Shown: one piece after another, positions 11,497-29,008 of the stretch
How positions within the stretch are numbered: position 1 is the stretch's first letter
Layout: each line of letters begins with the position of its first letter
Assembly (NCBI RefSeq): GCF_011308835.1
Contig: NZ_JAAOHY010000001.1
Coordinates: forward strand, 1,302,001-1,366,000
DNA from: Paracoccus xiamenensis
GTDB lineage: Bacteria; Pseudomonadota; Alphaproteobacteria; Rhodobacterales; Rhodobacteraceae
Length of the DNA stretch: 64,000 nucleotides
Direction of reading: 5' to 3'
Notes under the pieces: generated by a model
Database searches by the model: none
Told to the model about the DNA's origin: nothing
The model's input: the letters and a program-made list of their open reading frames with translations, nothing else
Translations under genes and position numbers: made by a program

Positions 11497-12504
11497 TCAT
11501 CCATTCTGGACACCAAGCGAGGATGCGCGCGCGACCAGCGTGACCGGCGCACGGGTTTCATCGGGCGGCACAATGCCGCCATTCAACCAGCCCAGAAGCC
11601 GGGCCGCGGTATCATGCCCGAAGCGCGCAATATCGCAGCTGACCGAGGAAAGCGCAGGCCAGACCTCGGCACATTCCTCGATATCGTCGAAGCCGATAAG
11701 GCGAATGTCCTGACCCACGCGCCGCCCCTGCCGGGCCAGCCCGTTCATCAGCCCAAGTGCCACGAGGTCGTTGAAGCACAGCACCGCCTGAATATCCTTG
11801 GGCAGGTTCAGCGCCGCTTCATGCCCGCCATGCCGGGTAATCGCCCCCGACAGCACCAGCGGCGTCAACCCCGCCGCCGCCATTTCCGCCACATAGCCCG
11901 AGGCGCGCTCGGCGGTGATCTGGCGCTCAGGCCTGCCGCCCAGAAAGGCGATGCGGGTCAGCCCCTCATCCAGCAGATGCCGCGTCGCGACCGCGCCCCC
12001 GGTGGCATAATCAAACGATGCGAAAGGGATGCGCCCGGCGCTGCCATCAAGCTTGCGCAGCACCTGCATGGCCGGGATCTGCGCCGCCGCGATCTGGTCC
12101 ATGATCGCACCGGGATCGCCGAATGTGGGCGAAATCACCAAGCCCGCCACCCCGTGTTCGATCATCGACTGCACCAGTTGCGCCTGCCGGTCCGGGTCTT
12201 CGTCCGAATTGCCGATCACCGTGGCATAGCCCTGCTCTGCCAGCGCCATCTGCATCGAGGTCGCGAATTCGGTAAAGAACGGGTTGCGCAGATCATTGAT
12301 GACCAGCCCGATCAGCCCGGTCTGCGCCGACCGCAGATTGGCCGCCGCGCGGTTATAGACATAGCCGACCCGCGCCATGGCGTCGCGCACCGTCAGCGCG
12401 GTTTCTTCGCGCACCAGTTCACTGCCTTGCAGCACCAGCGAGACGGTGGATTTCGATACCCCCGCAGCCCTGGCCACGTCCAGAATGGTCGGCCGCCGTT
12501 TCAT
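11497..12504 (-). CDS. LacI-family transcriptional regulator of the catabolic operon
   Basis: A 335-residue repressor. The N-terminal HTH (TILDVARAAGVSKSTVS) is followed by the hinge region (NRAAANLRSAQTGLIGLVIND) and a periplasmic-binding-like effector domain with GLVISPTFGDPG and IGFDDIEECAEVWPALSSV. The start ATG at 12504 overlaps the DUF993 stop as ATGA. The frame extends further upstream, but that is the DUF993 shadow. As the last gene of a 14-gene operon it is probably autoregulated. A 20-base palindrome with a central CG, typical of LacI-family operators, overlaps the operon promoter at 27010-27029. Its inducer is unknown. Confidence 0.93.
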   Translation of the reverse strand: MKRRPTILDVARAAGVSKSTVSLVLQGSELVREETALTVRDAMARVGYVYNRAAANLRSAQTGLIGLVINDLRNPFFTEFATSMQMALAEQGYATVIGNSDEDPDRQAQLVQSMIEHGVAGLVISPTFGDPGAIMDQIAAAQIPAMQVLRKLDGSAGRIPFASFDYATGGAVATRHLLDEGLTRIAFLGGRPERQITAERASGYVAEMAAAGLTPLVLSGAITRHGGHEAALNLPKDIQAVLCFNDLVALGLMNGLARQGRRVGQDIRLIGFDDIEECAEVWPALSSVSCDIARFGHDTAARLLGWLNGGIVPPDETRAPVTLVARASSLGVQNG

Positions 12505-13667
12505 GCCCCGATGCCATAGGTGGCAAGCAACTGGCGCATTCGCGACTCGGCCAGATCGGGGTTGGACAGAAGGCCAGCATCCGCAGCCAGCCGGTAGACC
12601 TCGGCATAATGGGTGATCGAGCGCGTCGACTGGAAGCCTGCGGGCATGATGAAGGCAGGCTGCATGCCGTTCAGCCATGACAGAAAGGCGATGCCAGCCT
12701 TGTAGAACTGCGTTGGCGCGCGGAAAAGCTCGCGTGAAAGGGGAACGGTCGGGTCCATCAGTGCGTCATAGGTTGCGCGGTCGCCGTCCGCCAGTGCCTC
12801 CAGCGCCTGCGCGGCGGCGGGGGCAATGGCGGTGAAGGCGCCCAGCAGCGCGTGGGAATGGTGCTTGCCGTCGCCCGCGATCAGCGCGGCATAGTTGAAA
12901 TCATCCCCGGTATACAGCTTCACCCCCTCCGGCAGCCGGGCACGGAAAGATTCCTCATGCGCCTGATCCAGCAGCGAGATCTTGATGCCGTCAACCTTGT
13001 CCCGATGCGCCGCAATCAGGTCCAGCACGGCGTCCGAGGCGGCGGCGATATCGGTATGACCCCAGTAACCTTTCAGCGCCGGGTCGAACATGTCGCCCAG
13101 CCAGTGCAGCACCACCGGATCCTTCGCTTGGCCCAGCAGACGATCGTAGACGTGGCGGTAATCGTCCGGTGCGGCGCCTATCGCCGGCAGCGCGCGCGTG
13201 GCCATCAGGATCAACTGCCCGCGTTCCGTTTCGATCGCCTCCATCTGGTGTTCATAGGCGGCGATGATGCTGTTCAGATCCGGCAGTTCCTCTAGCACCT
13301 TGTGATCGGTCCCTGCCCCGCAGGCAACGCGGGGTTTCAGCGGATGGGCCCTGGCCTCCTTCATGGTCCGCGCAATCAGCTCTCGCGCGGTTTCCCAGTC
13401 AACACCCATGCCGCGCTGCGCGGTGTCCATCGCCTCGGCCAGTCCCAGTCCCTGATCCCACAGGCTGCGGCGGAAGTTCAGCGTCGGTTCCCAGTCCACC
13501 GCCGGGCGGTCCGTCAAGGGGTTCCGCTCGGCCAGCGGGTCGCTGACGACATGGGCGGCGGCAAAGGCCACGCGCGTCCATTCGCGCTGAGGCGCGCGGG
13601 GCACCAGCGGCTCTCGCGTGCTGGCGAATGGGGCAAGCGTGCCGTCATAGGTGGGCAGGTGCAGCAT
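12501..13667 (-). CDS. DUF993 family protein (dihydrodipicolinate synthase/aldolase-like)
   Basis: A 388-residue member of DUF993, related to the class I aldolases of the DHDPS/NAL superfamily. Segments such as VDGIKISLLDQAHEE (about 227-241) with a candidate Schiff-base Lys, KLYTGDDFNYAALIAGDGKHHSHALLG in pieces, and the C-terminal helices fit a TIM barrel. The family has no well-established reaction. In this operon, with sugar-type dehydrogenases and CoA enzymes, a retro-aldol cleavage of an oxidised sugar-like ring is a reasonable guess. The gene starts three bases after the Dabb gene ends and overlaps lacI by four bases, so it is co-expressed with both. Confidence 0.85.
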   Translation of the reverse strand: MLHLPTYDGTLAPFASTREPLVPRAPQREWTRVAFAAAHVVSDPLAERNPLTDRPAVDWEPTLNFRRSLWDQGLGLAEAMDTAQRGMGVDWETARELIARTMKEARAHPLKPRVACGAGTDHKVLEELPDLNSIIAAYEHQMEAIETERGQLILMATRALPAIGAAPDDYRHVYDRLLGQAKDPVVLHWLGDMFDPALKGYWGHTDIAAASDAVLDLIAAHRDKVDGIKISLLDQAHEESFRARLPEGVKLYTGDDFNYAALIAGDGKHHSHALLGAFTAIAPAAAQALEALADGDRATYDALMDPTVPLSRELFRAPTQFYKAGIAFLSWLNGMQPAFIMPAGFQSTRSITHYAEVYRLAADAGLLSNPDLAESRMRQLLATYGIGA

Positions 13668-13670
13668 GGC

Positions 13671-13985
13671 TCAATCCTTCACAGCAAGATCGAAAACGAG
13701 GATTCCGTCCAGCCCGCCCACCGCATTCGCGATCAGCGCGTCACCGACGCGGCGGTGGTCGGGATGGTCCTGATAGGCGGCGAGCGCGTCCCAGTCGGTG
13801 AAATCGGCGACAAACCCGTGCAGGAAGCCGCGCTCGATCTGCTCGGGGCTTTCGCTGCGGCCAGCGGTGATCGACAGCACCCCCGGCAGCACGTCGCGGA
13901 TGCGGTGCAGATCGGCGAAGATCTGGGCGATGCGATCTTCCGGCACCTCATCACGAAAGCGGATCAGGACGATATGGCGGATCAC
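13671..13985 (-). CDS. Dabb family (stress-responsive A/B barrel) small protein
   Basis: A 104-residue dimeric alpha/beta-barrel protein. The family signature is visible as MIRHIVLIRFRDEVPEDRI, then LPGVLSITAGRSESPE and FADFTDWDALAAYQDHPDHR-like text near residues 60-75. Dabb proteins in catabolic operons often act as small lyases, cyclases or intermediate-binding proteins; none is proven for this one. The ATG overlaps the upstream GMC oxidoreductase stop by four bases, and the next gene begins three bases on. Strict coupling between a GMC flavoprotein and DUF993 suggests that it handles the keto product of the flavoprotein. Confidence 0.85.
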   Translation of the reverse strand: MIRHIVLIRFRDEVPEDRIAQIFADLHRIRDVLPGVLSITAGRSESPEQIERGFLHGFVADFTDWDALAAYQDHPDHRRVGDALIANAVGGLDGILVFDLAVKD

Positions 13986-15574
13986 CTCGCATCCTCCTTG
14001 ATCATGTCGGCGGCCTTTTCGGCGATCATGATGGTCGGCGCGTTGGTATTCGAAGACACTAGGCGCGGCATGATCGAGGCATCGACGATGCGCAGCCCCT
14101 CGATCCCGTTGAAACGCAGCCTAGTGTCCACCACCGCCGCCGCTTCGCTTCCCATCCGGCAGGTGCCGGCGGGGTGGTGGTCGGTCTTGGCATTGGCCAC
14201 GGCGTAGTTGATGTAATCGTCTTCGGTCTGGACCCCCGGCCCCGGCAGGACCTCGCGCAGTACATAGGGTTTCAACGCGTCCTGCCGCATGATCTCCTGC
14301 GCAAGCTTCAGCCCCTTGATCGACATCTCGCGGTCATGCGGATCGGCCCAGTAATTCGGGTCGATCAGCGGCGCGGCCTTGGGATCGCTGCTGGCCAGCC
14401 GCACCGTCCCGCGCGAGCGTGGTCGCAGATAGGCCGAGTTCAGCGTGACGCCGCCATTCGGCATCGCGGCCACGCCCGCCTCGATCCCGGAACCGAGGCC
14501 CAGATGGAACTGGATATCCGGGGACCGCGCGCCTTCGTCGGCATACCAGAAGCCGCCGGTTTCAAATAGCGAGGACGCGACCGGCCCCTTGCGGGTCAGC
14601 AGATATTGCAGCCCGGCCAGCACGGAATAATGCGGTTTGGCATAGCGATCATAGGTGTGCGGGCCGGTGCATTCGGCGATGACGAACAGGTCCAGATGGT
14701 CCTGAAGGTCGGACCCGACTCCCGGCTGGTCCAGCACCACATCGACGCCGACGCCGCGCAGATGGTCCGCCGGGCCTATCCCCGACAGCTGCAGCAGACG
14801 CGGCGAGCCGATGGCGCCGGATGACAGGATCACCTCTGCATCCGCATCAATCCGCTTTTCGCTGGTCCCGTCTGCCACTCGGATAGCCTTGGCCCGACCG
14901 TTTTCGACCACGATCCCCAGCACCTGCGCGCCCGACATCACCGTCAGGTTCGGACGGCTTCGCGCCGGGTCCAGAAACGCCACGGAAGTCGAGGACCGCC
15001 GCGCATGTTTTTGCGTCAGCTGGTAGTAGCCCAGCCCCTCCTGATCCTCGCCCGTCATGTCGTGATTGGTGGGGATCCCAAGCTCTCGCCCGGCCTTGAA
15101 ATACGCATCGCAGATTGGCAGGGGCGCAGCAGGTTTTGACACGCCCAACGGCCCGCCCTGCCCGTGGTAACGGTTGTTGTGGGTGTCGTTATCCTCGGAC
15201 TTCTTGAAATAGGGCAGCACGTCCTCATAGGACCAGCCATCGCAGCCCATCTGCCGCCATTCGTCGTAATCCAGCGCATTGCCGCGCGTATAGATCTGCG
15301 CGTTGATGCTGGACCCACCGCCCAAGACACGGGCCTGCGTGAAACGGACCACGCGGTCCTGCATGTGTTTTTGCGGAACAGTTTCCCACCCCCAACTGCC
15401 GATGCCCTTGGTCATTTTCGCAAAGCCCGCAGGCATGGCATAGAACGGGTGGCGAGGTCGCCCGCCAGCCTCGACCAGCAGAACGCGGGCTTCGGGATTC
15501 TCGCTCAGCCGGTTGGCCAGCACGCAGCCCGCACTGCCGCCACCGATAATGATGAAATCGTAACCTTCGGCCAT
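13982..15574 (-). CDS. GMC-family FAD oxidoreductase (choline/glucose dehydrogenase-like), second copy
   Basis: A 530-residue FAD alcohol dehydrogenase or oxidase. The N-terminal dinucleotide fold (YDFIIIGGGSAGCVLANRLSE) is followed by the GMC signature VLGGGSSINAQIYTRGN and SSGAIGSPRLLQLSGIGP. The C-terminal active-site pair is His in HHPAGTCRMG and Asn in SSNTNAPTIMIAEKAA. The start at 15574 has a strong AAGGAGG site; upstream in-frame codons lie in the SDR region and are not used. There is no signal peptide, so it is cytoplasmic. It is more like choline-dehydrogenase-type GMC proteins than the first GMC in this operon, so the two probably oxidise different positions or intermediates. Confidence 0.93.
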   Translation of the reverse strand: MAEGYDFIIIGGGSAGCVLANRLSENPEARVLLVEAGGRPRHPFYAMPAGFAKMTKGIGSWGWETVPQKHMQDRVVRFTQARVLGGGSSINAQIYTRGNALDYDEWRQMGCDGWSYEDVLPYFKKSEDNDTHNNRYHGQGGPLGVSKPAAPLPICDAYFKAGRELGIPTNHDMTGEDQEGLGYYQLTQKHARRSSTSVAFLDPARSRPNLTVMSGAQVLGIVVENGRAKAIRVADGTSEKRIDADAEVILSSGAIGSPRLLQLSGIGPADHLRGVGVDVVLDQPGVGSDLQDHLDLFVIAECTGPHTYDRYAKPHYSVLAGLQYLLTRKGPVASSLFETGGFWYADEGARSPDIQFHLGLGSGIEAGVAAMPNGGVTLNSAYLRPRSRGTVRLASSDPKAAPLIDPNYWADPHDREMSIKGLKLAQEIMRQDALKPYVLREVLPGPGVQTEDDYINYAVANAKTDHHPAGTCRMGSEAAAVVDTRLRFNGIEGLRIVDASIMPRLVSSNTNAPTIMIAEKAADMIKEDAR

Positions 15575-15585
15575 CGGGGCCTCCT

Positions 15586-16335
15586 TCACAGTCGCGGGAT
15601 GGACAGACCGCCATCCACGGAAATCACGCTGCCGGTCGAGAATGCCATCTCGCCGCACACCAGCGGCAGCACCGCGCGGCCAATGTCGGCGGGTTCGCCC
15701 CAACGGGCGGCGGGGACCAGCCCGCCCTCGATCAGCGCGTCATATTTGGCGGAAACGCCTTCGGTCATGGGGGTGCGGATGATGCCGGGGCGCAGTTCGA
15801 AGACGCCGATGCCGTCTGCGGCGAGCCTTGCCGCGAAAAGCTTCGTCATCATGGATGCTGCGGCCTTCGACATGCAGTATTCCGCGCGTTCGGGTGACAC
15901 CATCTCGGCGCTGACCGAGGTCACGAAGATGATGCTGCGATAAGGATCGGCGCCCTGCCCCAGCATCCGCCGCGCGACCTGTTGCGCCAGAAAGAAGTTG
16001 CCGCGCAGGTTGATGTTCATGGTCCAGTCGAAGTTTTCGGGCAGCATTTCCAGCATGTCGCCCCTGATCCGCGCAGGCACCCCCGCGTTGCAGATCAGGC
16101 TCGTGACGGGGCCGAGGTCTGCGTCGACGGCATCGAGCAGCGTCGGCACCGCGTCGATCTGCGAGAGATCGTGCTGGTAATAGCGCGCTTCCGTTCCGAG
16201 TTGTGCCATGCCGTCTGCCACGGCATCGGTCGGTTGCTCGGCGGCGATGGCCAACTGCCAGCCCGCATCCCGCAGCGCCTGCGCGATGCCAAGCCCGATG
16301 CCCTGCTGGCCGCCGGTGATCAGCGCGACGCTCAT
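15586..16335 (-). CDS. SDR-family NAD(P)-dependent oxidoreductase
   Basis: A 249-residue classical short-chain dehydrogenase/reductase. The cofactor loop TGGQQGIGLG is at residues 8-17, the NAG motif is CNAGVP, catalytic Ser lies in VTSVSAEM, and the YxxxK pair in YCMSKAA. The C-terminus FSTGSVISVDGGLSIPRL is typical of the family. The ATG at 16335 overlaps the preceding GMC gene as ATGA, and the following GMC gene begins 11 bases on. It is therefore co-translated with two flavoprotein dehydrogenases and likely oxidises or reduces a hydroxyl/keto intermediate of the same substrate. The substrate is unknown. Confidence 0.93.
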   Translation of the reverse strand: MSVALITGGQQGIGLGIAQALRDAGWQLAIAAEQPTDAVADGMAQLGTEARYYQHDLSQIDAVPTLLDAVDADLGPVTSLICNAGVPARIRGDMLEMLPENFDWTMNINLRGNFFLAQQVARRMLGQGADPYRSIIFVTSVSAEMVSPERAEYCMSKAAASMMTKLFAARLAADGIGVFELRPGIIRTPMTEGVSAKYDALIEGGLVPAARWGEPADIGRAVLPLVCGEMAFSTGSVISVDGGLSIPRL

Positions 16336-17825
16336 GCCCAGTCCTTTCCGCGAATGTGGTCCGCGGCGCGCAAGGACAGCGCCGCGATGGTCAGCGCCGG
16401 GTTCACGGCGGCAGAGGTCGGAAGAACGCTCGCATCGGTGATGAACAGGTTGGGATGGTCGTGGCTGCGGTTGTGGATGTCGGTGACGCTGGCGGCGGGG
16501 TCGTGCCCCATCTTCGCGGTTCCGCACTGATGCGACGGCGTGCGCCGGTCGAAGGGTTTTGACAGCACGATGGGGTAGCCCGCGCGGCGCAGTTCTTTCT
16601 TCAGCCGCGCCACAAGCGCCTCATGCGCGGCCCAGTTCGAGCGCTTCCAGTCCAGCACGATCTGATCGCCCTTCAGGCTGACGCGGCTTTCGGGGTCGGG
16701 TAAGTCTTCGGACATGGCGTAAAGATCCAGCGCGCGCGATGAAATCGCATTCGCGACCGGCAGCGGCAGGCCCGAGCCTGCCTTCAGGATCGGGCCCGTC
16801 ACCCGGCCCAGCATCTGGATATTGCCGAGCGGTTCGCCATCCGGTCCGCCGGTTTCGTAAAAATCATTCACCATCAGCGTCTTCTGGTAAACGGTCCCGT
16901 TCCGCCGGAACGGATGGATCGCCAGCACCGCCGAGCAATTGTGGTTCATGAAATTCCGGCCCAACTGGTCGGAGCCATTTGCCAGCCCGTTCGGATGCGC
17001 CTCATCCGCGGAGCGCAACAGCAGCGCGGCAGAGTTCACCGCCCCCGTCGCCAGCGCAAACAGCGGTGCCTCCAGCCGCTGCTCGCCTTCAGGACCGACG
17101 ACATGAACCGCCACGATCCGCCCATCCGTCCCGCATTCCAGCCGTATGGCCTGCGTCCCGGTCAGCAAGGTCACATTCGAATGCCGCAGCGCCTCGGCAA
17201 TGCCGATTGTCTCCGCATCCATCTTGCCGCCGACCGTATTCGGATAACCGTCCCAACCGATTTTGGCACGTTCCAACCAGCGGTCGAGATCCACCCCCAG
17301 CGGCAGGTATGAGGGGTTGAGGCCAATTCCCTTCAAGCGGCGGCGCAGATCGGCAACCTCTGGTTCGTCGGGGACGGGTGGGAAAGGATAGGTGCCTGAA
17401 TGCGCAGGCTCGCTCGGGTCGTCGCCAAGCTGGCCGCGGACCTGATACATTTCTTCGGCAGCCTGATACCACGGTTCCAACTCGGCATAGGGGATCGGCC
17501 AGCCCGGCGTGGTGCCGCCCATGTGGCGGATCGGGCTGAAATCGCTTTCGCGATAGCGCAGCAGCACCGCACCATAGAATTTCGAATTGCCGCCGACGTA
17601 GTAGAAGTTGCCGGGGCTGAATGGCTGCCCCTGCCCGTCAAGCCAGGTTTCCTTGGGCCGGAACACGCCCCGCCCGTGAATCGCGTAACCGTCCACGGCG
17701 TCGGGGCTGTCCTGCATCCGCTCGCCGGTTTCGACGATCAGGATGCGTTTGCCGGATGGGGCAAGCGCGGCGGCAAGTGTCGCGCCCCCCATGCCCGATC
17801 CGATGATGATAAGATCCGCGTCCAT
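16332..17825 (-). CDS. GMC-family FAD oxidoreductase, first copy (sugar-dehydrogenase-like)
   Basis: A 497-residue GMC flavoprotein. The FAD fold starts at DADLIIIGSGMGGATLAAAL. The mid region holds PGNFYYVGGNSKFYGAVLLRYRE in pieces, and the C-terminal catalytic His is in PSHQCGTAKMGHDP with Asn in SAAVNPALTIAALSL. The ATG at 17825 shares the TGATG junction with the transporter ATPase gene; a TTG one codon earlier is less likely. It is a divergent GMC of the type often annotated as glucose-methanol-choline or sugar 3-dehydrogenase-like. Its position directly after the ABC genes suggests that it takes the first oxidation of the imported compound. That role is inference. Confidence 0.9.
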   Translation of the reverse strand: MDADLIIIGSGMGGATLAAALAPSGKRILIVETGERMQDSPDAVDGYAIHGRGVFRPKETWLDGQGQPFSPGNFYYVGGNSKFYGAVLLRYRESDFSPIRHMGGTTPGWPIPYAELEPWYQAAEEMYQVRGQLGDDPSEPAHSGTYPFPPVPDEPEVADLRRRLKGIGLNPSYLPLGVDLDRWLERAKIGWDGYPNTVGGKMDAETIGIAEALRHSNVTLLTGTQAIRLECGTDGRIVAVHVVGPEGEQRLEAPLFALATGAVNSAALLLRSADEAHPNGLANGSDQLGRNFMNHNCSAVLAIHPFRRNGTVYQKTLMVNDFYETGGPDGEPLGNIQMLGRVTGPILKAGSGLPLPVANAISSRALDLYAMSEDLPDPESRVSLKGDQIVLDWKRSNWAAHEALVARLKKELRRAGYPIVLSKPFDRRTPSHQCGTAKMGHDPAASVTDIHNRSHDHPNLFITDASVLPTSAAVNPALTIAALSLRAADHIRGKDWA

Positions 17826-18943
17826 CAATCCACGATCCGGTCTTCGGTCGCTGGATCGAAGACCACGGCCTTGTCCATGTTCACCACGAAATCGAAGGGC
17901 TGTCCGGCATGGACATCCACATCGGCACGCATTCGCGCGATGCAGGCCTTGCCCGACAGCGAGGTCTCGACAAAGGTGTCGGACCCGGCAGGCTCGGTCA
18001 CGTGCACCATATTGCGCAGGGCCTGTGTGTTCTTCGCATTGCGGTCGACGCCATCGGCATCGGTGATCGCCTCGGGGCGGATGCCAAGGATCACTTGCTT
18101 GCCCAGATAGCTGCGCAGGTTCGGGCCGTTCTGCGTCAGGTTCAGCATGATCTGCTGGCCCTCGGCACCCGTCAGTTCCGCCGCAACGACGCCGTTCACG
18201 TCCCGCAATGTCGCGGGGATCAGGTTCATCGACGGGCTGCCCATGAAGCTGGCGACGAACATATTGGCCGGCGTGTCATAGACCTCTTTCGGGGTGCCGA
18301 GCTGCTGGACGTAGCCCTTGTTCATCACCGCGATGCGGGTGGACAGGGTCAGCGCCTCGATCTGGTCGTGGGTGACGTAGACGATGGTGCTTTTCAGGCG
18401 CTGATGCAGCTTCTTGATCTCGGTCCGCATGTCCACGCGCAGCTTGGCGTCAAGGTTCGACAAAGGTTCATCGAACAGGAACACATCCGGGTCGCGGGTC
18501 AGCGCCCGGCCCATGGCGACGCGCTGACGCTGACCGCCCGACAGCTGGCCGGGCTTGCGGGCCAGTAGCTGTTCGATCTGCAGAAGCTTCGCCACCTCGG
18601 CCAGTTTCTTCTCGCGCTCGGGCTTGGGGATCTTGTGCATCTCCATCCCGAAGGTGATGTTCTGGCCCACGGTCATGTTCGGGTAAAGCGCATAGCTTTG
18701 GAACACCATGGCGATGTTGCGCTTGGACGGGTGCACATCGTTGACCACCCGGTCCTTGATCGAGATCGTGCCGCTGGTGATGTTTTCCAGCCCCGCGATC
18801 ATGTTCAGCAGGGTGGATTTCCCGCAGCCGGACGGGCCGACGAGAACCAGAAACTCGCCCTCCTCGACGCCGATGTCGACGCGGTGCAGCACCTCGACGG
18901 CGCCGTAGGATTTGGTGACGTTGTCGATGTCAAGAAACGGCAT
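17825..18943 (-). CDS. Sugar ABC transporter ATP-binding protein (UgpC/MalK type)
   Basis: A 372-residue CUT1-family ATPase. Walker A is GPSGCGKST (about 37-45), the signature LSGGQRQRVAMGRAL, Walker B DVFLFDEPLSNLDAKLR and the switch His in YVTHDQIEAL. The C-terminal OB-fold regulatory domain is present (GIRPEAITDADG). It powers import by the two permeases encoded just upstream, four bases away. Its stop overlaps the GMC start. The regulatory domain in this class can couple transport to metabolic state. Substrate specificity lies with the binding protein, not with this subunit. Confidence 0.95.
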   Translation of the reverse strand: MPFLDIDNVTKSYGAVEVLHRVDIGVEEGEFLVLVGPSGCGKSTLLNMIAGLENITSGTISIKDRVVNDVHPSKRNIAMVFQSYALYPNMTVGQNITFGMEMHKIPKPEREKKLAEVAKLLQIEQLLARKPGQLSGGQRQRVAMGRALTRDPDVFLFDEPLSNLDAKLRVDMRTEIKKLHQRLKSTIVYVTHDQIEALTLSTRIAVMNKGYVQQLGTPKEVYDTPANMFVASFMGSPSMNLIPATLRDVNGVVAAELTGAEGQQIMLNLTQNGPNLRSYLGKQVILGIRPEAITDADGVDRNAKNTQALRNMVHVTEPAGSDTFVETSLSGKACIARMRADVDVHAGQPFDFVVNMDKAVVFDPATEDRIVD

Positions 18944-18947
18944 CGCG

Positions 18948-19829
18948 TTATCCTTTTACTGAGCCAGCCATGAGGCCGCGCACGAAGTAGCGACCGGCGA
19001 CGATATAGACGAGCAGCGTTGGAAGCGCCGCCAGGATCGCGCCGGCGAAGTCGACGTTATAGGCTTTGACGCCGGTCGAGCTGTTCACGAGGTTGTTCAG
19101 CGCCACCGTCATCGGCATGGAATCGAGATCGGCGAATGATGCGCCGAACAGGAAGTCGTTCCAGATATTGGTGAACTGCCAGATGATGCAGACGACCGCG
19201 ATGGGCCCGGACACCGGCAGCATGATGCGCCAGAAGATGCGGAAGAACCCGGCCCCGTCCATCATCGCCGCCCGCACCAGTTCGGTCGGGAAGGCTGCGT
19301 AATAGTTGCGGAAGTAGAGGGTCGAGAAGCCGATCCCGTAAACCACATGGACAAGGATCAGCCCCGAGGTCGTTCCCGCCAGCCCGATCGTTCCCAGCAC
19401 CCGCGCCATTGGGATCAACACGATCTGGAAAGGGATGAAGCAGGAAAACAGCATCAGCCCGAACAGGATATCCGATCCGCGGAATTTCCACTTGGTCAAG
19501 ATATAGCCATTCATCGCCCCGAGGATGGTGGAAATCGCGACGGCCGGCACCACCATCAGGATCGAGTTCATGAAATAGGGCTTCAGCCCCGTCGCCTCGA
19601 CCCCGATCTGCGCGCTGCCCCAGGCGGAAATCCACGGCTCAACGGTGGGTTCGTTCGGCAGCGACATCATGTTGCCGCCGGTGATCTCGGGCAGCGGCTT
19701 GATCGAGTTAATCAGCATGATGAAAAACGGCAGCAGATAGAACAAAGCGAAGAAGATCAGCACCACATAGATGAAGGTGCGGGTGATGCGGCCTGTGCGG
19801 ACGGCCTGGTCCTGAGCGCCCCCTGACAT
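18948..19829 (-). CDS. Carbohydrate ABC transporter permease (MalG-like)
   Basis: A CUT1 inner-membrane permease of 293 residues with six predicted helices. It carries the coupling EAA loop as ELVRAAMMDGAGFFRIFWRIMLPVSGP (quoted in part: RAAMMDGAGFF and MLPVSGP), which contacts the ATPase. The ATG at 19829 shares a TGATG junction with the partner permease; a GTG one codon earlier is possible. It forms the translocation pore with the 19829-20728 product. The pairing with a glucose/mannose-type binding protein suggests a mono- or disaccharide-like substrate or polyol. Confidence 0.94.
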   Translation of the reverse strand: MSGGAQDQAVRTGRITRTFIYVVLIFFALFYLLPFFIMLINSIKPLPEITGGNMMSLPNEPTVEPWISAWGSAQIGVEATGLKPYFMNSILMVVPAVAISTILGAMNGYILTKWKFRGSDILFGLMLFSCFIPFQIVLIPMARVLGTIGLAGTTSGLILVHVVYGIGFSTLYFRNYYAAFPTELVRAAMMDGAGFFRIFWRIMLPVSGPIAVVCIIWQFTNIWNDFLFGASFADLDSMPMTVALNNLVNSSTGVKAYNVDFAGAILAALPTLLVYIVAGRYFVRGLMAGSVKG

Positions 19830-20728
19830 CACTTCTGCTCCTTCAACTCGGCATAGACGTAGGGCACCATGATCGCGGCGATGCCCATCAGCATGATGAC
19901 CGCGGATGCCGCACCGACGCCCATCTGGTTACGGGTGAAGGTGTAGGAATACATGAAGGTCGCGGGTAACTCGGTCGCCCGGCCCGGCCCGCCGCCTGTC
20001 AACGCGATCACAAGGTCATAGGACTTGATCGCGAGGTGCGCGAGGATCACGAAGGCCGACAGGAAGGCGGGCCTGAGCAGCGGGATGACGATGCGGCGAT
20101 ACAGGTTCCAGTTCGACGCGCCGTCGATCTGGGCGGCCTTGAGCATCTCGTTGTCAATGCCGCGCAGGCCCGCCAGAAACATCGCCATGACGAAGCCCGA
20201 AGACTGCCAGACGGCGGCGATCACCAGCGTGTAGATCGCGTAGTCACGGTCCTTGATCCAGCCGAACTTGAAGCTTTCCCAACCCCACAGATGCATGGTG
20301 TTTTCCAGCCCGATGCCGGGGTCCAGCAGCCATTTCCACGCGGTCCCCGTCACGATGAAGGACAGCGCCATGGGGTACAGATATATCGGGCGCAGCATCC
20401 CTTCGCCCCGGATCTTCTGGTCAAGGAAGATCGCCAGCAGCAGCCCGATGGCGATGCAGATGACGATGTAAAGCGACGCGAAGATGGCGAGGTTGATCAG
20501 CGCCGTGGTCCATGCCGAAAGGCCAAACAGGCGGGCATAGTTTTCAAAGCCGACCAGATCATAGCTGGGCAGCATCTTGCTGTCCGTGAAGGACAGATAG
20601 ATCGTATAGACGATAAAGCCATAGACAAAGACCAGCATCGCCGCCAGCGAGGGCGAAAGAACCAGCTTCGGCAGCCAGTTCTGCAATGTGGTGCGCATGT
20701 CCTGTGGCGCGCGGGTGGACCCGGCCAT
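19829..20728 (-). CDS. Carbohydrate ABC transporter permease (MalF-like)
   Basis: A 299-residue CUT1 permease. The first helix follows a short cytoplasmic N-terminus (LVLSPSLAAMLVFVYGF), and the EAA coupling motif is EMLKAAQIDGASNWNLYRRI. It forms a heterodimer with the MalG-like product encoded next. The gene is separated from the upstream binding-protein gene by 89 bases that hold a strong hairpin, which could lower expression of the membrane genes relative to the binding protein, as in other binding-protein transport operons. Confidence 0.94.
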   Translation of the reverse strand: MAGSTRAPQDMRTTLQNWLPKLVLSPSLAAMLVFVYGFIVYTIYLSFTDSKMLPSYDLVGFENYARLFGLSAWTTALINLAIFASLYIVICIAIGLLLAIFLDQKIRGEGMLRPIYLYPMALSFIVTGTAWKWLLDPGIGLENTMHLWGWESFKFGWIKDRDYAIYTLVIAAVWQSSGFVMAMFLAGLRGIDNEMLKAAQIDGASNWNLYRRIVIPLLRPAFLSAFVILAHLAIKSYDLVIALTGGGPGRATELPATFMYSYTFTRNQMGVGAASAVIMLMGIAAIMVPYVYAELKEQK

Positions 20729-20777
20729 GAAAACTCCTCCCCCTCGATTTCGGTGACGCGGGACCAGCCTGCGTGGG

Positions 20778-20808: not shown

Positions 20809-20817
20809 GAAAGGCGA

Positions 20818-22074
20818 TTACATCGCGCCTTCGACGGCGTTGGCCAGTTCTTCGGCGGCCGTTGCGCTGTCATATTCGCCGTTGAAATGCGCGGTGATGA
20901 CGTCATACATCGCGTTTTTCACCGCCGCAGGGTTGGCGTGGCCGTGGCCCATCGACCCCAGCAGCGTGCCGCCTTCGGCTGCGGCGGCAAGGTCTTTCAT
21001 GCCCTGCTTGGCGCAATCGTCGAAGCCTTCGTCCGACACGTCGGTCCGCGCCGGGACTGAGCCCTTGACCTGGTTGAACGCCGCCTGGAAGGCGGGCGAT
21101 TCAGCGGCCTTGGCCATTTCGATCTGGGCGGCCTGCGCTTCGGGGCTGTCCTGCTTGAACATGACGAACTGGTCGCTGTTGAAGGTCACCACACCTTCCG
21201 TCCCCGGCACACGGAAGCACAGGAAATCGGTGCCCGGCACCTTTTCGGCGCGCAGGAATTCGCCCTTGGCCCAGTCACCCATGATCTGGAAGGCGGCCTC
21301 GCCATTGATGACCATGGCCGAGGCCAGGTTCCAGTCGCGACCCGAGAAGTTGTCGTCAACAAAGCCGCGCAGCTGGCCCATCTTGTCGAAAGCCGCGACC
21401 ATTTCGGGCGAGTTCAGCGCCTCGGGGTCGAGATCGATCATCGACTTCTGATAGAATTCCGGCCCCCCGGACGCCAGCACGGCGCTGTCGAAGATGGTCG
21501 CTTCCTGCCAGGGCTGACCGCCATGGGCGAGTGCCACCTTGCCCGCATCCTTCACCGTCTGAAGGGCGGCGATGAATTCGTCCCAATTGGTCGGCTGGGC
21601 AATCCCCAGCTCGTCCAGAACGGCCTTGTTGGCCCAGACCCAGTTGGTCGAGTGGACGTTCACCGGCGCGGCAATCCAGTTGCCATTCGGCTTGGAGAAT
21701 TTCTGGATGGCGGCGGGGATGACGGCGTCCCAGTTCTCGGCCGTCGCGGCCTCGTTCAGGTCGGCCAGAACATCGCCCTGCTCGACCCAGTCGAGAATGT
21801 CGAAGCCCAGCATCTGCACGGCGGTCGGCGGGTTGCCCGAGGTGACGCGGGCGCGCAGCGCGGTCATCGCGGCCTCGCCACCGCCACCTGCGACGGGCAT
21901 GTCGTTCCAGCCGATATCCTTGCCGGCCAGATCCTCCTTCAACACGTTCAACGCCGCAGCCTCGCCGCCGGCGGTCCACCAGTGCAGGACTTCGACGTCC
22001 TCGGCCATGGCGACGCTTGCCGTCAGACCCAGCGCCATTGCCGCAGTGGTTGCCAGTTTCAGTTTCAAACGCAT
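20818..22074 (-). CDS. Periplasmic sugar-binding protein of the ABC transporter
   Basis: A 418-residue family 1 extracellular solute-binding protein. The signal peptide ([17 protein letters not shown]...AMA) ends before [15 protein letters not shown], the opening seen in glucose/mannose-type binding proteins. Aromatic segments such as [12 protein letters not shown] and [11 protein letters not shown] are likely to line the sugar pocket. The start is fixed by AGGGGAGG five bases before the ATG. It captures the substrate in the periplasm for the permease pair encoded next. The resemblance to glucose/mannose binders suggests a sugar-like ligand but does not name it. Confidence 0.93.
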
Positions 22075-22122
22075 GGTTTCCTCCCCTATTGCGTTATGCC
22101 TTTATCGCTAACAGCTTGCCCG

Positions 22123-23646
22123 TTAGCTGTCACGCACCCAGTTTGCCCGTCCGGGTGCGACCCGCAATTGCACTGTTTTCACTTCCAGATATTCCTCCAG
22201 CCCATAGCGCCCAAGCTCGCGCCCCTGACCGCTTTCCTTGACGCCGCCAAAGGGCATTTCGGCGAAGCCGTCCATCCAGGTATTGGTCCAGACGGTGCCT
22301 GCCTGCACCTTGCGGGCGAAGTTCAGGCAGGTGTGGATATCCGTGCTCCAGACCCCTGCCGACAGGCCGTATGCGGCGTTGTTGGCAAGGGTGATCGCCT
22401 CGTCCGCGTCGGTGAAGGTCAGGACCGACAGGACGGGGCCGAAGACTTCCTCTCGCGCGATGGCCATGTCGGGGGTGACGCCGGCGATGACGGTCGGGCC
22501 ATAGAACTGCCCGCCCATGCCCGGCACCGCCAGATCGGAGCCGCCGATCAACACCTTGGCCCCGGCCTTTTCAGCCTCGCGGACATAGCCGTCGATCTTC
22601 TGGCGATGCGCGTCGGAAATGATCGCGCCGACTTGCGTGCGTTCATCCAGCGGGTCGCCGAATGGCACTTTCGCGGACAAGGCCGTCACCTTCGCCAGCA
22701 ACTCGTCCGCAACGTCCTTATGAACGATGATACGGCTGCCGGAATTGCAGCATTCGCCCGCATTGAAATAGACCCCGAAGGCGATTGCGTCCGCCGCCGC
22801 GTCCAGATCTGCGTCGGGGAAAATCACCTGCGGGTTTTTACCGCCGAGTTCGAGCGAGACCTTTTTCAGCGTCCCCGCCGCCGCTTCGACGATCCGCTTG
22901 CCCACCCCGGTCGAGCCGGTGAAGCTGACCATATCGACCCGAGGATCGGACGACATGATCGCCCCCACCGGATCCCCGTAGCCCAGAATAATGTTGACGA
23001 CACCGGCAGGCAGCCCGGCCTCGATCAGCAACTCGCCAAGGATCACCGTGGTCGAGGGCGTCATCTCGGATGGCTTCACCACTGCCGTGCAGCCCGCCGC
23101 GAGTGCGAAGGGCAGTTTCTGGCTGACGATCAGGAAGGGGAAATTCCAGGGCGTGATGATCGACGCAACGCCGATCGGTTCCTTCAGCACCACGCCCAGC
23201 ATATCGGGGCCAAGGCTGTTATGGCTTTCACCGTGCACCGTGCGCGCCAGTGCGGCGGCATAGCGCCACAGATCGGCGGCGCCTTCGATCTCTGCCCGCG
23301 CCTGTGCGATGGGTTTGCCGGATTCCAGCACCTCGATCACGGCGATACGTTCGCGTTCGCGGTCGATCAGATCGGCCACCCGGTTCAGGATCGCCGCGCG
23401 ATCCTTGCCCGAGGACATACGCCACGAGCCTTCATCAAAGGTCTTGCGGGCGGCGGCGATGGCGGCCAGCACCTCGACCTCGCCACCCTTTGCGGACCGG
23501 CTGACGACGACGCCATGCGCGGGCGACAGGCGTTCGAATGTCGCGCCGCCCTCGCTGTCCTGCCATTCGCCATTGATCAGGTGACGCCCGGTAAAGGCTT
23601 CGGGAAGGGTTGCGCCACTGGCGCCGATTACGGTCATTTCAGTCAT
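22123..23646 (-). CDS. NAD(P)-dependent aldehyde dehydrogenase
   Basis: A 507-residue ALDH superfamily enzyme oxidising an aldehyde to a carboxylate. Motifs are SIITPWNFPFLIVSQK, SFTGSTGVGKRI, the general base Glu in SLELGGKNPQ and the catalytic thiol in FNAGECCNSGSR. The C-terminus carries the PFGGVKESGQGRELG motif. The gene begins one base after the enoyl-CoA hydratase stop and lies 48 bases before the binding-protein gene. In this operon it would oxidise an aldehyde released by cleavage or dehydrogenation of the substrate, giving an acid for the CoA transferase. That order is inference. Confidence 0.93.
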   Translation of the reverse strand: MTEMTVIGASGATLPEAFTGRHLINGEWQDSEGGATFERLSPAHGVVVSRSAKGGEVEVLAAIAAARKTFDEGSWRMSSGKDRAAILNRVADLIDRERERIAVIEVLESGKPIAQARAEIEGAADLWRYAAALARTVHGESHNSLGPDMLGVVLKEPIGVASIITPWNFPFLIVSQKLPFALAAGCTAVVKPSEMTPSTTVILGELLIEAGLPAGVVNIILGYGDPVGAIMSSDPRVDMVSFTGSTGVGKRIVEAAAGTLKKVSLELGGKNPQVIFPDADLDAAADAIAFGVYFNAGECCNSGSRIIVHKDVADELLAKVTALSAKVPFGDPLDERTQVGAIISDAHRQKIDGYVREAEKAGAKVLIGGSDLAVPGMGGQFYGPTVIAGVTPDMAIAREEVFGPVLSVLTFTDADEAITLANNAAYGLSAGVWSTDIHTCLNFARKVQAGTVWTNTWMDGFAEMPFGGVKESGQGRELGRYGLEEYLEVKTVQLRVAPGRANWVRDS

Positions 23647-23647
23647 G

Positions 23648-24418
23648 TCATTTCCCCGGAAAGACGGGTTTGCGTTTTTCAGTGAAGGCGGCGACGCCCT
23701 CGGCCTTGTCGGCGCTGGCGGCGATCATGCCCGACCCGAGCGCCTCGATCATGGCGTCGCGATCCTCGCCCACGGCAGCGTGGATCATGTATTTTGCCAC
23801 TTCCGTTGCACGGGGCGAGGTGGTCAGCAGCTTTTCAGCAATTTCCAGCGCTGCGGCGAAGGGCATTTCGGCAAGTTCCGCTACGAAACCGCAGGACAGC
23901 GCGCGTTCGGCGCTGATCCGGCGGCCGAAAAGGGCCATTTCCTTCAGCATCGGTTCCGGGATCAGCCGGGCAAGGCGCTGCGTCCCCGACCAGCCCGGCA
24001 CGATACCAACCTGAGTTTCCGGCAGCGCCAGCGTCGCGTCGGGTGCCATGACGCGAATGTCGCAACAGGCGGCCAGTTCCAGCCCCCCGCCGAAAGCATG
24101 CGCATGGATCACCGCGATTGTGGGCTTCGACAGCCGCGCCAACCGGTCGAAAATCCGATGCCCGTCGCGCACCCAATGACGCGAGAAATCGAAGGGCGAC
24201 AGCGGCGCCCAGGCTTTGATGTCTGCCCCTGCGCAGAAAGCACGCCCGCCCTCTCCCGTCAGGATCACGCAACGGACGGCAGGATCGTTGTCCAGCGTCG
24301 CGCAATGGCGTTCCAGCTGGGCCAACATTTCCGGTGTAAACGCGTTCAGCCGCGCCGGGTTGTTCAGCAGCAGCTTGGCGATGCCGCCGTCAATGGTCAG
24401 ATCCAGCGAGGCACTCAT
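23648..24418 (-). CDS. Enoyl-CoA hydratase/isomerase family protein
   Basis: A 256-residue crotonase-fold protein. The oxyanion-hole segments are AFCAGADIKAW (about 60-70) and HAFGGGLELAACCDIRV (about 105-122), with LPETQVGIVPGWSGTQRL carrying the usual acidic residue. The ATG at 24418 overlaps the CoA-transferase stop as ATGA; the frame upstream is a shadow of that gene. Enoyl-CoA hydratases add water to an unsaturated CoA ester, but crotonase relatives also do retro-Claisen or isomerase reactions. Pairing with a CoA transferase says that the substrate's carbon skeleton becomes a CoA thioester in this pathway. Confidence 0.92.
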   Translation of the reverse strand: MSASLDLTIDGGIAKLLLNNPARLNAFTPEMLAQLERHCATLDNDPAVRCVILTGEGGRAFCAGADIKAWAPLSPFDFSRHWVRDGHRIFDRLARLSKPTIAVIHAHAFGGGLELAACCDIRVMAPDATLALPETQVGIVPGWSGTQRLARLIPEPMLKEMALFGRRISAERALSCGFVAELAEMPFAAALEIAEKLLTTSPRATEVAKYMIHAAVGEDRDAMIEALGSGMIAASADKAEGVAAFTEKRKPVFPGK

Positions 24419-25986
24419 AGCTCCAGCCCCATCGCGCCCTGCGACAACAGCGCCTTGGGCATGGTCGCAGCGCTTTCGGCCACCTGCACCCGGCCCTGCG
24501 AGGCTTGCACGATGTCGCGTTCCGCCTCGATCCCCGGCATGATTTCTGTCGCAATCAGCCCCTTGTCGGTCAGCCGCATCACGCAGCGTTCGGTGACATA
24601 CAGCACCTTCTGGCCCCGGCTCAGCGCCCGCTGGCCAGAGAAGGTGACGTGTTCCACCGCCTCGACCATCTTGGTGAACTTGCCGGGCTTGCGGACGCGC
24701 AAGCCGTCCTCGGTCAGGTCCAGATCGGCCCCGGCTTCGAAAAAGCCGGAAAAGACGATCTCGGGCGCGTTGGCGGTAATGTCGACGAACCCGCCGCAAC
24801 CTGCTGTCAGATAAGGTTTTTTGCCAAGTTTTGAGACGTTAACGTTGCCCTGCACATCAACCTCCAGAAAGGACAGGAAGGACAGATCAAATCCACCGCC
24901 CTGAAAATAAGTGAACTGCTGCGGCGAGGGCATATAGGCGTCGGCGTTCGACGCGCAGCCAAAGGCAAAGCCGGTCAGCGGCATGCCACCCACCGCGCCC
25001 TGTTCAATGGCCCATGTGACGGCCTCGGGGTGGCCGGCCTCCAGCAGGATGCGGGGGACCATCGCCGAAATCCCAAAACCCAGATTGGCGGTCTGGCCGC
25101 GCTTCAGCTCCATCGCGGCGCGGCGCGCGATGACTTTTTCAACGCCGTACTCGGCCAGCGAAAAACTGTCCCACGGCCGCATGATCTGGCCCGAAATCGC
25201 CGGGTCATAGTCGGTTTCCGTGGTCTGGCGCTGATCGGGATCCACCACGATCAGATCGACCAGATGGCCGGGCACATGCACGTCATGGGGGCGCAAGGAT
25301 CCGCGCGCGGTGACGCGCTTGACCTGAGCGATGACCAGCCCGCCATGGTTCTTGGCGGTGATTGCCTGCTCCATGCCGCCAAGATAGGCACCTTCATGTT
25401 CATAGGTCAGGTTACCATGTTCATCCGCCGTGGTGGCACGGATGATGGCGACATTGGGGATGATGTTCGGGAAATGCAGCCACGTCTCGCCCGCGAATTC
25501 GGTGCGGTGGACGATGGGGTGTTCGGCGGCGCGCTCGTTCATGGCGCAGCCTTCGCGGATCGGGTCGGCAAAGGTGTCCAGCCCCACCTGCGTCAGCACG
25601 CCCGGACGGCGCGCGCCCGCGTCGCGGTTCATGTCGAACATGATCCCCGAAGGCACGTTATAGGCCGCGACCCGGTTTTCGACGACCATCTTCCAGATTT
25701 CCGGCATTTCAAGCGAGGACGGCCCGGACGGGTAGGACCCGGCCAGAATGCGCGTCAGCAGCCCGTCCTTGGCGATGTGGTCGATGCCCTTGATGCCATA
25801 CATATCACCCGCCGCGATGGGATGCAGCGTGGTCAGTTTGCGGGGATGGCCTTCGGCATCGAAGCGCGCGCCGATGGCGCGCAGCACCGCATCCGGGCAA
25901 CCCAACCCCGAGGATGAGGAAACCGAGACGACAGCCCCGTCCGCAATGCGCGAGGCAGCCTCGGCCGCCGTCACAACCTTGGACAT
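24415..25986 (-). CDS. Acyl-CoA:acetate/3-ketoacid CoA transferase (single-chain, YdiF-like)
   Basis: A 523-residue family I CoA transferase with alpha and beta halves fused. The second half holds TANLGFGISAMVP, and the catalytic Glu is Glu328 in TWAIEQGAVGGMP, matching the family's active-site Glu. GGGFDLSFLSFLEVDVQGNVNVSK follows in the family pattern. It would move CoA from an acyl-CoA donor to a carboxylate made by the operon's dehydrogenases. The start overlaps the Gfo/Idh/MocA stop by one base (TAATG). The FG-IS variant of the usual GIGxPEG motif is a small departure from the norm. Confidence 0.9.
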   Translation of the reverse strand: MSKVVTAAEAASRIADGAVVSVSSSSGLGCPDAVLRAIGARFDAEGHPRKLTTLHPIAAGDMYGIKGIDHIAKDGLLTRILAGSYPSGPSSLEMPEIWKMVVENRVAAYNVPSGIMFDMNRDAGARRPGVLTQVGLDTFADPIREGCAMNERAAEHPIVHRTEFAGETWLHFPNIIPNVAIIRATTADEHGNLTYEHEGAYLGGMEQAITAKNHGGLVIAQVKRVTARGSLRPHDVHVPGHLVDLIVVDPDQRQTTETDYDPAISGQIMRPWDSFSLAEYGVEKVIARRAAMELKRGQTANLGFGISAMVPRILLEAGHPEAVTWAIEQGAVGGMPLTGFAFGCASNADAYMPSPQQFTYFQGGGFDLSFLSFLEVDVQGNVNVSKLGKKPYLTAGCGGFVDITANAPEIVFSGFFEAGADLDLTEDGLRVRKPGKFTKMVEAVEHVTFSGQRALSRGQKVLYVTERCVMRLTDKGLIATEIMPGIEAERDIVQASQGRVQVAESAATMPKALLSQGAMGLEL

Positions 25987-26987
25987 TACAGCAGTCCCCC
26001 GTAATCCACCGCCGTGCGCTGCCCGCTTGCCGCCGCGCGCGCAACCGCATCGGCCACCGCCAGCGAGGCCACGCCATCGCGCCCATCAGCCGCAGGACGA
26101 CCCTGCCCCGCCGCCGCCTGACCGAACAGCCGGACAGAGCGGGCGTAAAGATCCTCGGCCTCAAACGTGACGGGGGTGTAGTCCAGCCCGCGACGGATCG
26201 AGATTTCACCGATGGGCCGTTGGCTCATCACATCGCGCGCGAAGATCGACCCGGTTGTGCCGTGAAATTCGATCCCGGTGCCGGCATGGGCGTGGGTAAA
26301 GCTTTCATGCGTCTGCACCTGCACGCCCGAGGGCATGGACCAGATCGACATCACGCTGTCCTCGACTCCCTGCCCCATATGCTGGCCGGTGGTCATGGCC
26401 ACGACCTCGACCGGGTTTTCGTCCAGATGGAAGCGGATCGTGTCGGCGTCATGGACAACGATATCCAGAATGACGCCTCCACCCGCGCCTGCATTATCGA
26501 CTCGCCAGCCCTGCAAGGCCTGCGGCAGGTTCACCGCATGGAAGACCCGCGCGCTGAGGACCTCGCCAATCGCGCCGTCTTTCAGCAAGTCGTGGATCGC
26601 GCGGTGGCTGGCGGCATTGCGCAGATGGTGGTTGGTGGCGAAGGTGACGCCAGCTTCCTCGGCCGCGCGGACCATGGCCACGGCATCGGCGACATTCATC
26701 GCCAGCGGCTTTTCGCACAGCACATGCTTGCCCGCCGCGATGGCCGCCATGGCCTGCGGAAAATGCTTTTCGTTGGTCGAGGAGATATAGACCGCGTCCA
26801 GATCCGGCTGGGCCAGCAACTCGTCAATCGTGGTCGTGGCGAACGCAATGTCGTTTTCCGACGCGAATTTATCGGCATGCGCCTGACCGGAGCTTTGGAC
26901 GGCCACAACCTCATCCCCGTTGCCGCGGAACGCGCCGATCATTCGGCCGCTCGCAATCGCACTTGCCCCGATCAATCCCCATTTCAT
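25986..26987 (-). CDS. Gfo/Idh/MocA family NAD(P)-dependent oxidoreductase
   Basis: A 333-residue sugar-type dehydrogenase. The N-terminal Rossmann loop is WGLIGASAIASG, and the conserved CEKPLAMN motif supplies the active-site Lys. The C-terminal half has the family's substrate domain, with a His in ILDIVVHDADTIRF. Members oxidise sugars, inositols or anhydrosugars at a ring hydroxyl. It is the first gene of the 14-gene operon, and the promoter and operator palindrome lie 22-70 bases before its ATG. With two GMC flavoproteins and an SDR, this pathway has four distinct alcohol dehydrogenases, which is unusually many for a simple sugar. Confidence 0.93.
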   Translation of the reverse strand: MKWGLIGASAIASGRMIGAFRGNGDEVVAVQSSGQAHADKFASENDIAFATTTIDELLAQPDLDAVYISSTNEKHFPQAMAAIAAGKHVLCEKPLAMNVADAVAMVRAAEEAGVTFATNHHLRNAASHRAIHDLLKDGAIGEVLSARVFHAVNLPQALQGWRVDNAGAGGGVILDIVVHDADTIRFHLDENPVEVVAMTTGQHMGQGVEDSVMSIWSMPSGVQVQTHESFTHAHAGTGIEFHGTTGSIFARDVMSQRPIGEISIRRGLDYTPVTFEAEDLYARSVRLFGQAAAGQGRPAADGRDGVASLAVADAVARAAASGQRTAVDYGGLL

Positions 26988-28999: not shown

Positions 29000-29008
29000 G
29001 CGGGCGAT

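Follow-up and report, generated by a model that had tools for sequence, protein, structure and literature searches.

We describe a 14-gene catabolic operon of Paracoccus xiamenensis, located in a 64,000-nt stretch of DNA (the window; all coordinates are positions in it). The genes are co-directional on the minus strand, from 26987 (a Gfo/Idh/MocA oxidoreductase, Gfo, first) to 11497 (a LacI-family regulator, last), and are listed here in operon order, behind a predicted operator; related loci carry L numbers.

27012..27027, strand unassigned: predicted LacI-type operator palindrome TTTGGAACGGTCCAAA upstream of the first gene (sole exact genome copy)
25986..26987, minus: Gfo/Idh/MocA oxidoreductase, 1,5-anhydro-D-fructose reductase (AFR) group (Pfam; 4koa and 2glx matches)
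24415..25986, minus: CoA transferase, YdiF/FadX-like, 523 aa, Glu328 (Pfam CoA_trans; closest structure 2ahu, YdiF)
23648..24418, minus: crotonase (enoyl-CoA hydratase/isomerase family), Glu114 and Glu134 (Pfam ECH_1)
22123..23646, minus: aldehyde dehydrogenase, Cys299/Cys300 and Glu266 (Pfam Aldedh; residues in 39/39)
20818..22074, minus: CUT1 substrate-binding protein, glucose-binding group (65% identity to 4r2b)
19829..20728, minus: CUT1 permease A (position and homology; L045 homologue annotated sugar ABC transporter permease)
18948..19829, minus: CUT1 permease B (position and homology; L045 homologue annotated carbohydrate ABC transporter permease)
17825..18943, minus: MalK/UgpC-type ABC ATPase (homology across loci; L045 homologue annotated UgpC)
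16332..17825, minus: GMC1, FAD glucose-dehydrogenase/fructose-dehydrogenase-like oxidoreductase (best structures 6a2u and 7w2j; His432 and Asn475 in 40/40)
15586..16335, minus: SDR, NCBIfam PRK12745 (325 bits, cut-off 250; Tyr153, Lys157 and Ser140 in 41/41)
13982..15574, minus: GMC2, choline-dehydrogenase-like GMC oxidoreductase (Pfam GMC_oxred_N and _C; NCBIfam PRK02106 at 570 bits, below its cut-off of 605)
13671..13985, minus: Dabb-domain protein, GTG start (Pfam PF07876; 20/40 loci with a Dabb at 40% identity or more)
12501..13667, minus: DUF993 protein, DHDPS-like TIM barrel by fold search, invariant Lys229 (Pfam PF06187, 569.5 bits)
11497..12504, minus: LacI-family regulator, last gene (Pfam LacI and Peripla_BP_3; in 39/40 loci)

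The junctions measure, in operon order, -1, -4, +1, +48, +89, -1, +4, -1, -4, +11, -4, +3 and -4 bp; 11 of 13 are overlaps or gaps of at most 11 bp, and the exceptions are 48 bp before the binding protein gene and 89 bp before the first permease gene. Pfam supported the families of the 10 proteins scanned (Gfo/Idh/MocA, CoA_trans, ECH_1, Aldedh, two GMC, SDR, Dabb, DUF993, and LacI), and the four transporter genes, outside that scan, were assigned via homology and the annotation of relatives. An earlier note on this DNA had described a single 14-gene operon with tight junctions, closing with a LacI gene, and had named these families; the layout and the assignments agree with it. Catalytic positions checked in eight proteins were intact in the window and near-invariant across the window and 38-40 orthologs. 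In GC content the operon resembles its surroundings in the window.

Conservation and predicted regulation

A DUF993 homologue was found in 79/390 Rhodobacterales genomes, with identities forming two groups (at least 67% in 43 genomes, including P. xiamenensis; 49-58% in the remainder). Loci were fetched for 40 of the other 42 genomes of the close group, and Rhodobacterales counts over 40 refer to these. The genome search for a conserved set, proposed in the earlier note, recovered the same 14-gene order in 15/40 loci and the order of 13 genes, minus Dabb, in 30/40. Crotonase, SDR, and DUF993 were each present in 40/40 loci; CoA transferase, GMC1, GMC2, and LacI in 39/40; Gfo and aldehyde dehydrogenase in 38/40; and each transporter gene in 37/40, the variable members being glycerate kinase (22/40) and Dabb (20/40). 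One locus (L077) is without Gfo and CoA transferase because it starts at a contig edge. Peteryoungia desertarenae (Rhizobiaceae) carries the 14 genes in identical order, followed by glycerate kinase, and rearranged versions occur in Sinorhizobium meliloti, Shinella, Rhizobium daejeonense, Microvirga, and Paraburkholderia. Distribution in Paracoccus is patchy: among the genomes listed, the close DUF993 type occurs in one other, the 50% type in two, and neither in the remaining 20.

The operon is a genuine, conserved catabolic unit, and it is beyond chance assembly because of the recurrence of the 14- and 13-gene orders. That several pathways merely sit together is very improbable. The enzyme families are broad, Dabb and glycerate kinase vary, and a few relatives lack GMC1, but the order is kept in 30/40 loci, near-complete sets occur in other families, genes overlap translationally, LacI is present in 39/40 loci, and a conserved predicted operator stands at the first gene in 39/40 loci with Gfo (see below). 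The separate-pathway reading was rejected on conserved gene order. In some loci (L067-L070, L073-L078, and others), a second LacI-family gene (~25% identity), oppositely oriented, separates the aldehyde dehydrogenase gene from the binding protein gene.

The palindrome TTTGGAACGGTCCAAA, a predicted LacI-type operator by its shape, has one exact copy in the whole genome and one further place with two mismatches. Operator sites were surveyed at 42 related loci (40 Rhodobacterales, 2 Rhizobiaceae), 40 of them with Gfo, and TGGAnnnnTCCA was found close to the Gfo start in 39/40 of the latter. By called starts the count was 35/40; it rose on adding L066 (site 43 bp before the conserved Gfo start) and on correcting L084, L094, and L100 (Gfo start called too early, sites 19-73 bp after the called start). 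L087 had imperfect copies only (by eye). Within 400 bp upstream (16 kb total) there were 51 sites, versus 85 in all 852 kb of loci. Sixteen loci had a further site ~10.4-10.6 kb downstream of the Gfo start, mostly just before GMC1, which suggests a second promoter there. The upstream neighbor, a TctA permease gene, is on the same strand and 78 bp from the operon, with the operator in that gap; read-through from TctA into the operon may occur.

The reductase, the binding protein, and the candidate substrate

Among structures, the window Gfo best matched 4koa (349 bits) and 2glx (341 bits), both named 1,5-anhydro-D-fructose reductase, with the next structure at 96 bits. It is 51% identical to 2glx, versus at most 28% for seven other Gfo proteins (one 46-residue piece excepted), and the compared Gfo proteins from operons or pairs have 49-87% identity to 2glx. 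The Gfo of the S. meliloti Ak57 operon (L126) matches PDB 4koa at 332/333 residues and 2glx at 87%; the AFR of S. meliloti is encoded within its operon version. Lys93, Asp175, and His179, which we take to be the catalytic Lys, Asp, and His of AFR, were present in 39/39 sequences. The Gfo tree was poorly resolved (14/21 inner branches open) because of long outgroups, and grouping was therefore based on identities. By these identities the window Gfo belongs to the AFR sequence group, and by analogy it would be an NADPH-dependent anhydrofructose reducer.

Thirty-three plasmid-collection records held AFR homologues at E <= 1e-70; an operon-type CoA transferase was adjacent in 20, a GMC1 homologue was adjacent in 12, and neither was annotated or found in 1. 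Eleven of the 12 GMC1-bearing records are Bradyrhizobium with equal identity and hence not independent. The Gfo-GMC1 pair without an adjacent CoA transferase (L127 and 10 further Bradyrhizobium plasmid records) suggests that the two enzymes act consecutively. In a class-wide sample, an AFR homologue at E <= 1e-90 was found in 3/289 genomes, two of them with the operon (the window and L139), the third being L138 (see below). A levoglucosan pathway (NCBIfam levoglucosan dehydrogenase, 79 bits versus a cut-off of 650) and a C-glycoside pathway (Gfo versus DgpA structures, only 74-80 bits) were rejected. Anhydrofructose is formed from starch and glycogen (PMC2974679).

The binding protein is 65% identical to Oant_3817 (4r2b; entry title "with bound glucose") and ~44% identical to SAR11_0769 and to a P. 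putida protein. Close relatives of both Gfo and the binding protein have thus been characterised or solved, which makes the earlier label "orphan" too strong. The glucose-binding protein of P. putida contacts glucose through 12 residues (PMC7927077), of which the window protein keeps 11, with Leu for Lys92. This Leu was found in 50/50 relatives compared (46 distinct sequences, including the window protein, Oant_3817, and two binding proteins of L093), and at five other contact positions one sequence of the set departs. The pocket reads WWEGQLWWNDKH in operon binding proteins versus WWEGQKWWNDKH in two glucose-binding proteins, and the 12 pocket letters of the Sinorhizobium, Microvirga, Paraburkholderia, R. 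daejeonense, and Shinella operon proteins are identical to those of the window. Leu also occurs in two non-operon relatives (R. etli; second copy in L139), which differ at several positions. Leu alone is therefore no marker of the operon; the otherwise-glucose pocket with that sole change appears to be. Our confidence in the explanation favored below was lowered slightly because of these two relatives. The ligand would be glucose-shaped and altered at one group, which fits, but does not prove, 1,5-anhydroglucitol. In S. meliloti, binding protein SMc04396 is reported to be dextrin-induced (PMC4960864); its gene number indicates that it is probably the operon binding protein of that species.

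We tentatively favor the view that the operon, under LacI control, serves to import and oxidatively degrade a glucose look-alike, likeliest a 1,5-anhydrohexose (1,5-anhydro-D-glucitol, -fructose, or -mannitol). Because 4r2b was solved with glucose, plain glucose may instead be the ligand, and we regard as somewhat unlikely that glucose or another ordinary glucose-type sugar or glucoside is oxidised without phosphorylation, with GMC1 acting at ring C1 or C3 and the other enzymes on keto-glucose or gluconate-type acids. The 65% identity to 4r2b, the 11/12 glucose contacts, the closeness of GMC1 to FAD glucose dehydrogenase, and weak matches of glycoside 3-dehydrogenase families to Gfo (38-49 bits) would agree with ordinary glucose; the replacement of the contact lysine by leucine in 50/50 relatives, a Gfo far closer to AFR than to glucose-fructose oxidoreductase or sugar 3-ketoreductases, and an operon without glucokinase, lactonase, or glycosidase argue against it. 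Anhydrosugars, which the earlier note had listed among its candidate substrates, are now the best-supported guess.

CoA-linked enzymes, DUF993, and a proposed pathway

Glu328 of the CoA transferase, in an ExG motif and presumably the catalytic glutamate of YdiF-type CoA transferases, was present in 40/40 sequences. The crotonase has Glu114 in 40/41 (one gap) and Glu134 in 41/41, in motifs GGGxELA and PExxxG that we take to hold the two hydratase/dehydratase catalytic glutamates; judged by these residues it retains both glutamates of the enoyl-CoA hydratase type. The operon is without thiolase and without CoA ligase, and a thiolase-like exit to acetyl-CoA was rejected on the missing thiolase. 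At one locus (L105), LacI, CoA transferase, crotonase, SDR, and DUF993 stand beside a TTT transporter and, by eye, TRAP-like genes, the other operon enzymes being absent within its 14.1 kb, the only part of that genome searched. L105 suggests that the operon divides into two halves, one leading from sugar to acid and one handling the acid, and, because it pairs the CoA transferase, crotonase, SDR, and DUF993 with an acid-type importer, that these enzymes process an imported acid. The glycerate kinase beside 22/40 loci points to a glycerate exit. Glycerate as an obligatory exit is weakened by 18/40 loci with no glycerate kinase in the fetched stretch, which reaches only ~3 kb downstream, and by the host genome (see below).

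The AlphaFold model of DUF993 (pLDDT 83.9) was searched with Foldseek; the best match was 4dnh (E 4e-41; S. meliloti SMc04132, a DUF993 protein, called hypothetical), and DHDPS structure 3flu_D matched at E 8.2e-10 (TM [target] 0.79, 15% identity). On this model DUF993 is a DHDPS-type TIM barrel, and the fold supports the aldolase-like label of the earlier note. An invariant Lys (Lys229; 13/13 and 41/41 comparisons) lies on predicted strand 225-231, where the Schiff-base Lys of the NAL/DHDPS aldolase superfamily would be expected; His188, Trp189, Tyr252, Asp255, and Asp256 are also invariant. Unlike that superfamily, DUF993 has GAGTD (117-121, on the corresponding strand by position) in place of GTTGE, which we take to be the DHDPS carboxylate-binding motif, and the profiles are not confidently alignable. 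No paper on DUF993 by name was found in the open-licence literature.

In the plasmid-collection regions read, DUF993 is repeatedly accompanied by Gfo and a member of the sugar-phosphate isomerase family, sometimes also by glycerate kinase; other regions pair it with CoA transferase, crotonase, and SDR. A third context (L106, L107, L115-L117, L119-L121, and L123-L125) combines TetR with a Gfo of ~380 residues, DUF993, and a member of the sugar-phosphate isomerase family; some of these loci also have an enolase-family protein or acid transporters. An S. meliloti pSymA cluster (L128, 2866-19555) joins operon-type CoA transferase, crotonase, SDR, and DUF993 to acyl-CoA dehydrogenase, two aldo/keto reductases, glycerate kinase, and electron-transfer flavoproteins, and is possibly a second CoA-linked sugar pathway. 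In a phbC phaR mutant compared with phbC, the log2 changes of SMc04390-SMc04392 and SMc04132 are negative (PMC12542648), and the S. meliloti homologues may be under the influence of the storage-polymer regulator PhaR.

It is distinctly unlikely that another glucose-like substrate (deoxy sugar, cyclitol, or C-linked sugar) passes through a beta-oxidation-like series of CoA transferase, crotonase, and SDR, with DUF993 in place of thiolase. The pSymA cluster, which joins the same four enzyme types to acyl-CoA dehydrogenase and electron-transfer flavoproteins, and the family name of the SDR (PRK12745, 3-ketoacyl-ACP reductase) would suit such a series. The window operon, however, has no acyl-CoA dehydrogenase, the DHDPS fold differs from the thiolase fold, and DUF993 occurs with Gfo and the isomerase family protein but no CoA transferase (e.g., L047, L048, L051, L052, L054, and L055); because several DUF993 loci are without CoA transferase, DUF993 probably acts on non-CoA compounds.

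For the favored anhydrohexose substrate, gene content, homology, order, and operator are observed, and we infer every reaction. The CUT1 transporter (type assigned by homology) would import the 1,5-anhydrohexose. GMC1 would oxidise at C2 and the AFR-group Gfo reduce there, as its AFR homologue is known to do, with interconversion of anhydroglucitol, anhydrofructose, and anhydromannitol. GMC2 and aldehyde dehydrogenase may then turn the C6 alcohol into an acid, which the CoA transferase would activate with CoA drawn from the product thioester, such that CoA merely cycles. Elimination and water addition by the crotonase could open the ether ring to a keto-deoxy acid, and SDR and DUF993, as a Schiff-base-type aldolase of the predicted fold, would cleave the chain. 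A glycerate fragment may leave via the glycerate kinase that accompanies many relatives. It is unlikely, though worth stating, that this constitutes a new aerobic pathway in which 1,5-anhydrohexitols become an anhydro-uronic acid, the crotonase opens the ring as a CoA thioester, the transferase recycles CoA, and DUF993 represents a previously unknown family of aldolases; the remaining DUF993 clusters would then supply this cleavage with different sugar acids.

The catabolic operon of the earlier note, in which sugar uptake of the CUT1 type is coupled to oxidation and to CoA chemistry, stands. Two of its proposals found no support: retro-Claisen cleavage, not favored with a crotonase that keeps both hydratase glutamates, and acyl-CoA entry into central metabolism, given the missing thiolase and CoA ligase and the glycerate kinase beside 22/40 loci.

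Several points weigh against the anhydrohexose scheme. The largest difficulty for the mechanism is that the P. xiamenensis genome has no PF02595 or PF13660 glycerate kinase and no homologue of the operon-linked type, and a glycerate fragment would therefore need another route there. Identity between the window Gfo and AFR is only 51%, and the Arg that we take to contact NADPH in AFR is His in the window. One genome (L138) has an AFR homologue with the operon absent within 19.9 kb, and the Paraburkholderia largidicola cluster is without GMC1. hhalign of the DUF993 profile to the genome's DapA gave no significant alignment (probability 0.24%, E 0.25) and did not confidently place Lys229, which is therefore only a candidate Schiff-base residue. 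C6 oxidation and ring opening are drawn from chemical reasoning alone. By families found or homology, no monooxygenase is among the 14 genes, to which the search for such an enzyme was confined, and the passages of a 2025 review on the Rhizobiaceae anhydromannitol route do not mention CoA chemistry (PMC12441222).

Comparison with known systems and neighboring genes

In that Rhizobiaceae route (AFR, Sinorhizobium morelense), AFR yields anhydromannitol, and a P450-like C1 hydroxylation (enzyme unidentified) leads to mannose (PMC12441222, section 5.1). The first gene of the operon is in the AFR group, but the operon differs in having GMC, CoA transferase, crotonase, SDR, and DUF993. The S. meliloti locus seen in strain Ak57 (L126), which presumably corresponds to SMc04390-SMc04401 by gene number, shares 13/14 genes (all but Dabb) plus glycerate kinase; it differs in that LacI is the first gene, DUF993 is divergent in front of LacI, and identities are 43-73%. 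For this version no published pathway was found in the open-licence literature. The L126 record (CP090106.1) is labelled pSymB; at 3.7 Mb and with seemingly chromosomal loci, its label may be wrong.

The gut 1,5-anhydroglucitol-6-phosphate pathway (glycyl-radical YbiW/PflD) has the same proposed substrate class but is anaerobic, PTS-phosphorylated, and dependent on a radical enzyme, with no such enzyme among the 14 genes (PMC12441222). The Pseudomonas glucose ABC transporter (ppGBP/GltB) shares the binding protein fold and 11/12 glucose contacts, whereas the operon protein has Leu for the contact Lys and is linked to a catabolic set, not to glucose phosphorylation genes. The deoxyribonate oxidative pathway combines a sugar acid, an SDR, CoA-type cleavage, and a glycerate exit, as proposed for the operon, but uses a beta-keto acid cleavage enzyme and is not known to involve a crotonase or DUF993. 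The operon is not a new class of system, each protein being in a known family; it supplies AFR, which has been characterised but has no known pathway locus, with a full set of genes. The open-licence literature yielded no description of a pathway built from these genes, consistent with the earlier note, which knew of none.

According to the 2025 review, no analogous oxidative 1,5-anhydroglucitol pathway has been described; it also states that 1,5-anhydroglucitol builds up in two inherited neutropenias in the form of a toxic phosphate and that a probiotic lowering intestinal anhydroglucitol would need an enzyme active under aerobic conditions (PMC12441222). If the favored substrate is right, the operon would offer a set of candidate genes for aerobic anhydrosugar chemistry that is conserved and easy to delete, and it gives DUF993 a testable role.

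Directly upstream of the operon lie TctA, TctB, and TctC (tripartite tricarboxylate transporter; 27066-30028, minus strand), which may be a linked acid importer; a weak TctA-like match (34%) is also upstream in a congener (L066). Farther upstream on the minus strand are TRAP transporter genes (DctM, 31197-32522; DctP, 33044-34063) and a putative esterase (34154-34993). An HlyD-type adaptor and an AcrB-type RND pump (6966-11457, plus strand) are convergent with the operon end, and RND pump genes also adjoin the Peteryoungia and R. daejeonense versions. On the Paraburkholderia plasmid L135, a 435-bp stretch (10723-11157) was flagged as beta-lactamase by an automatic predictor.

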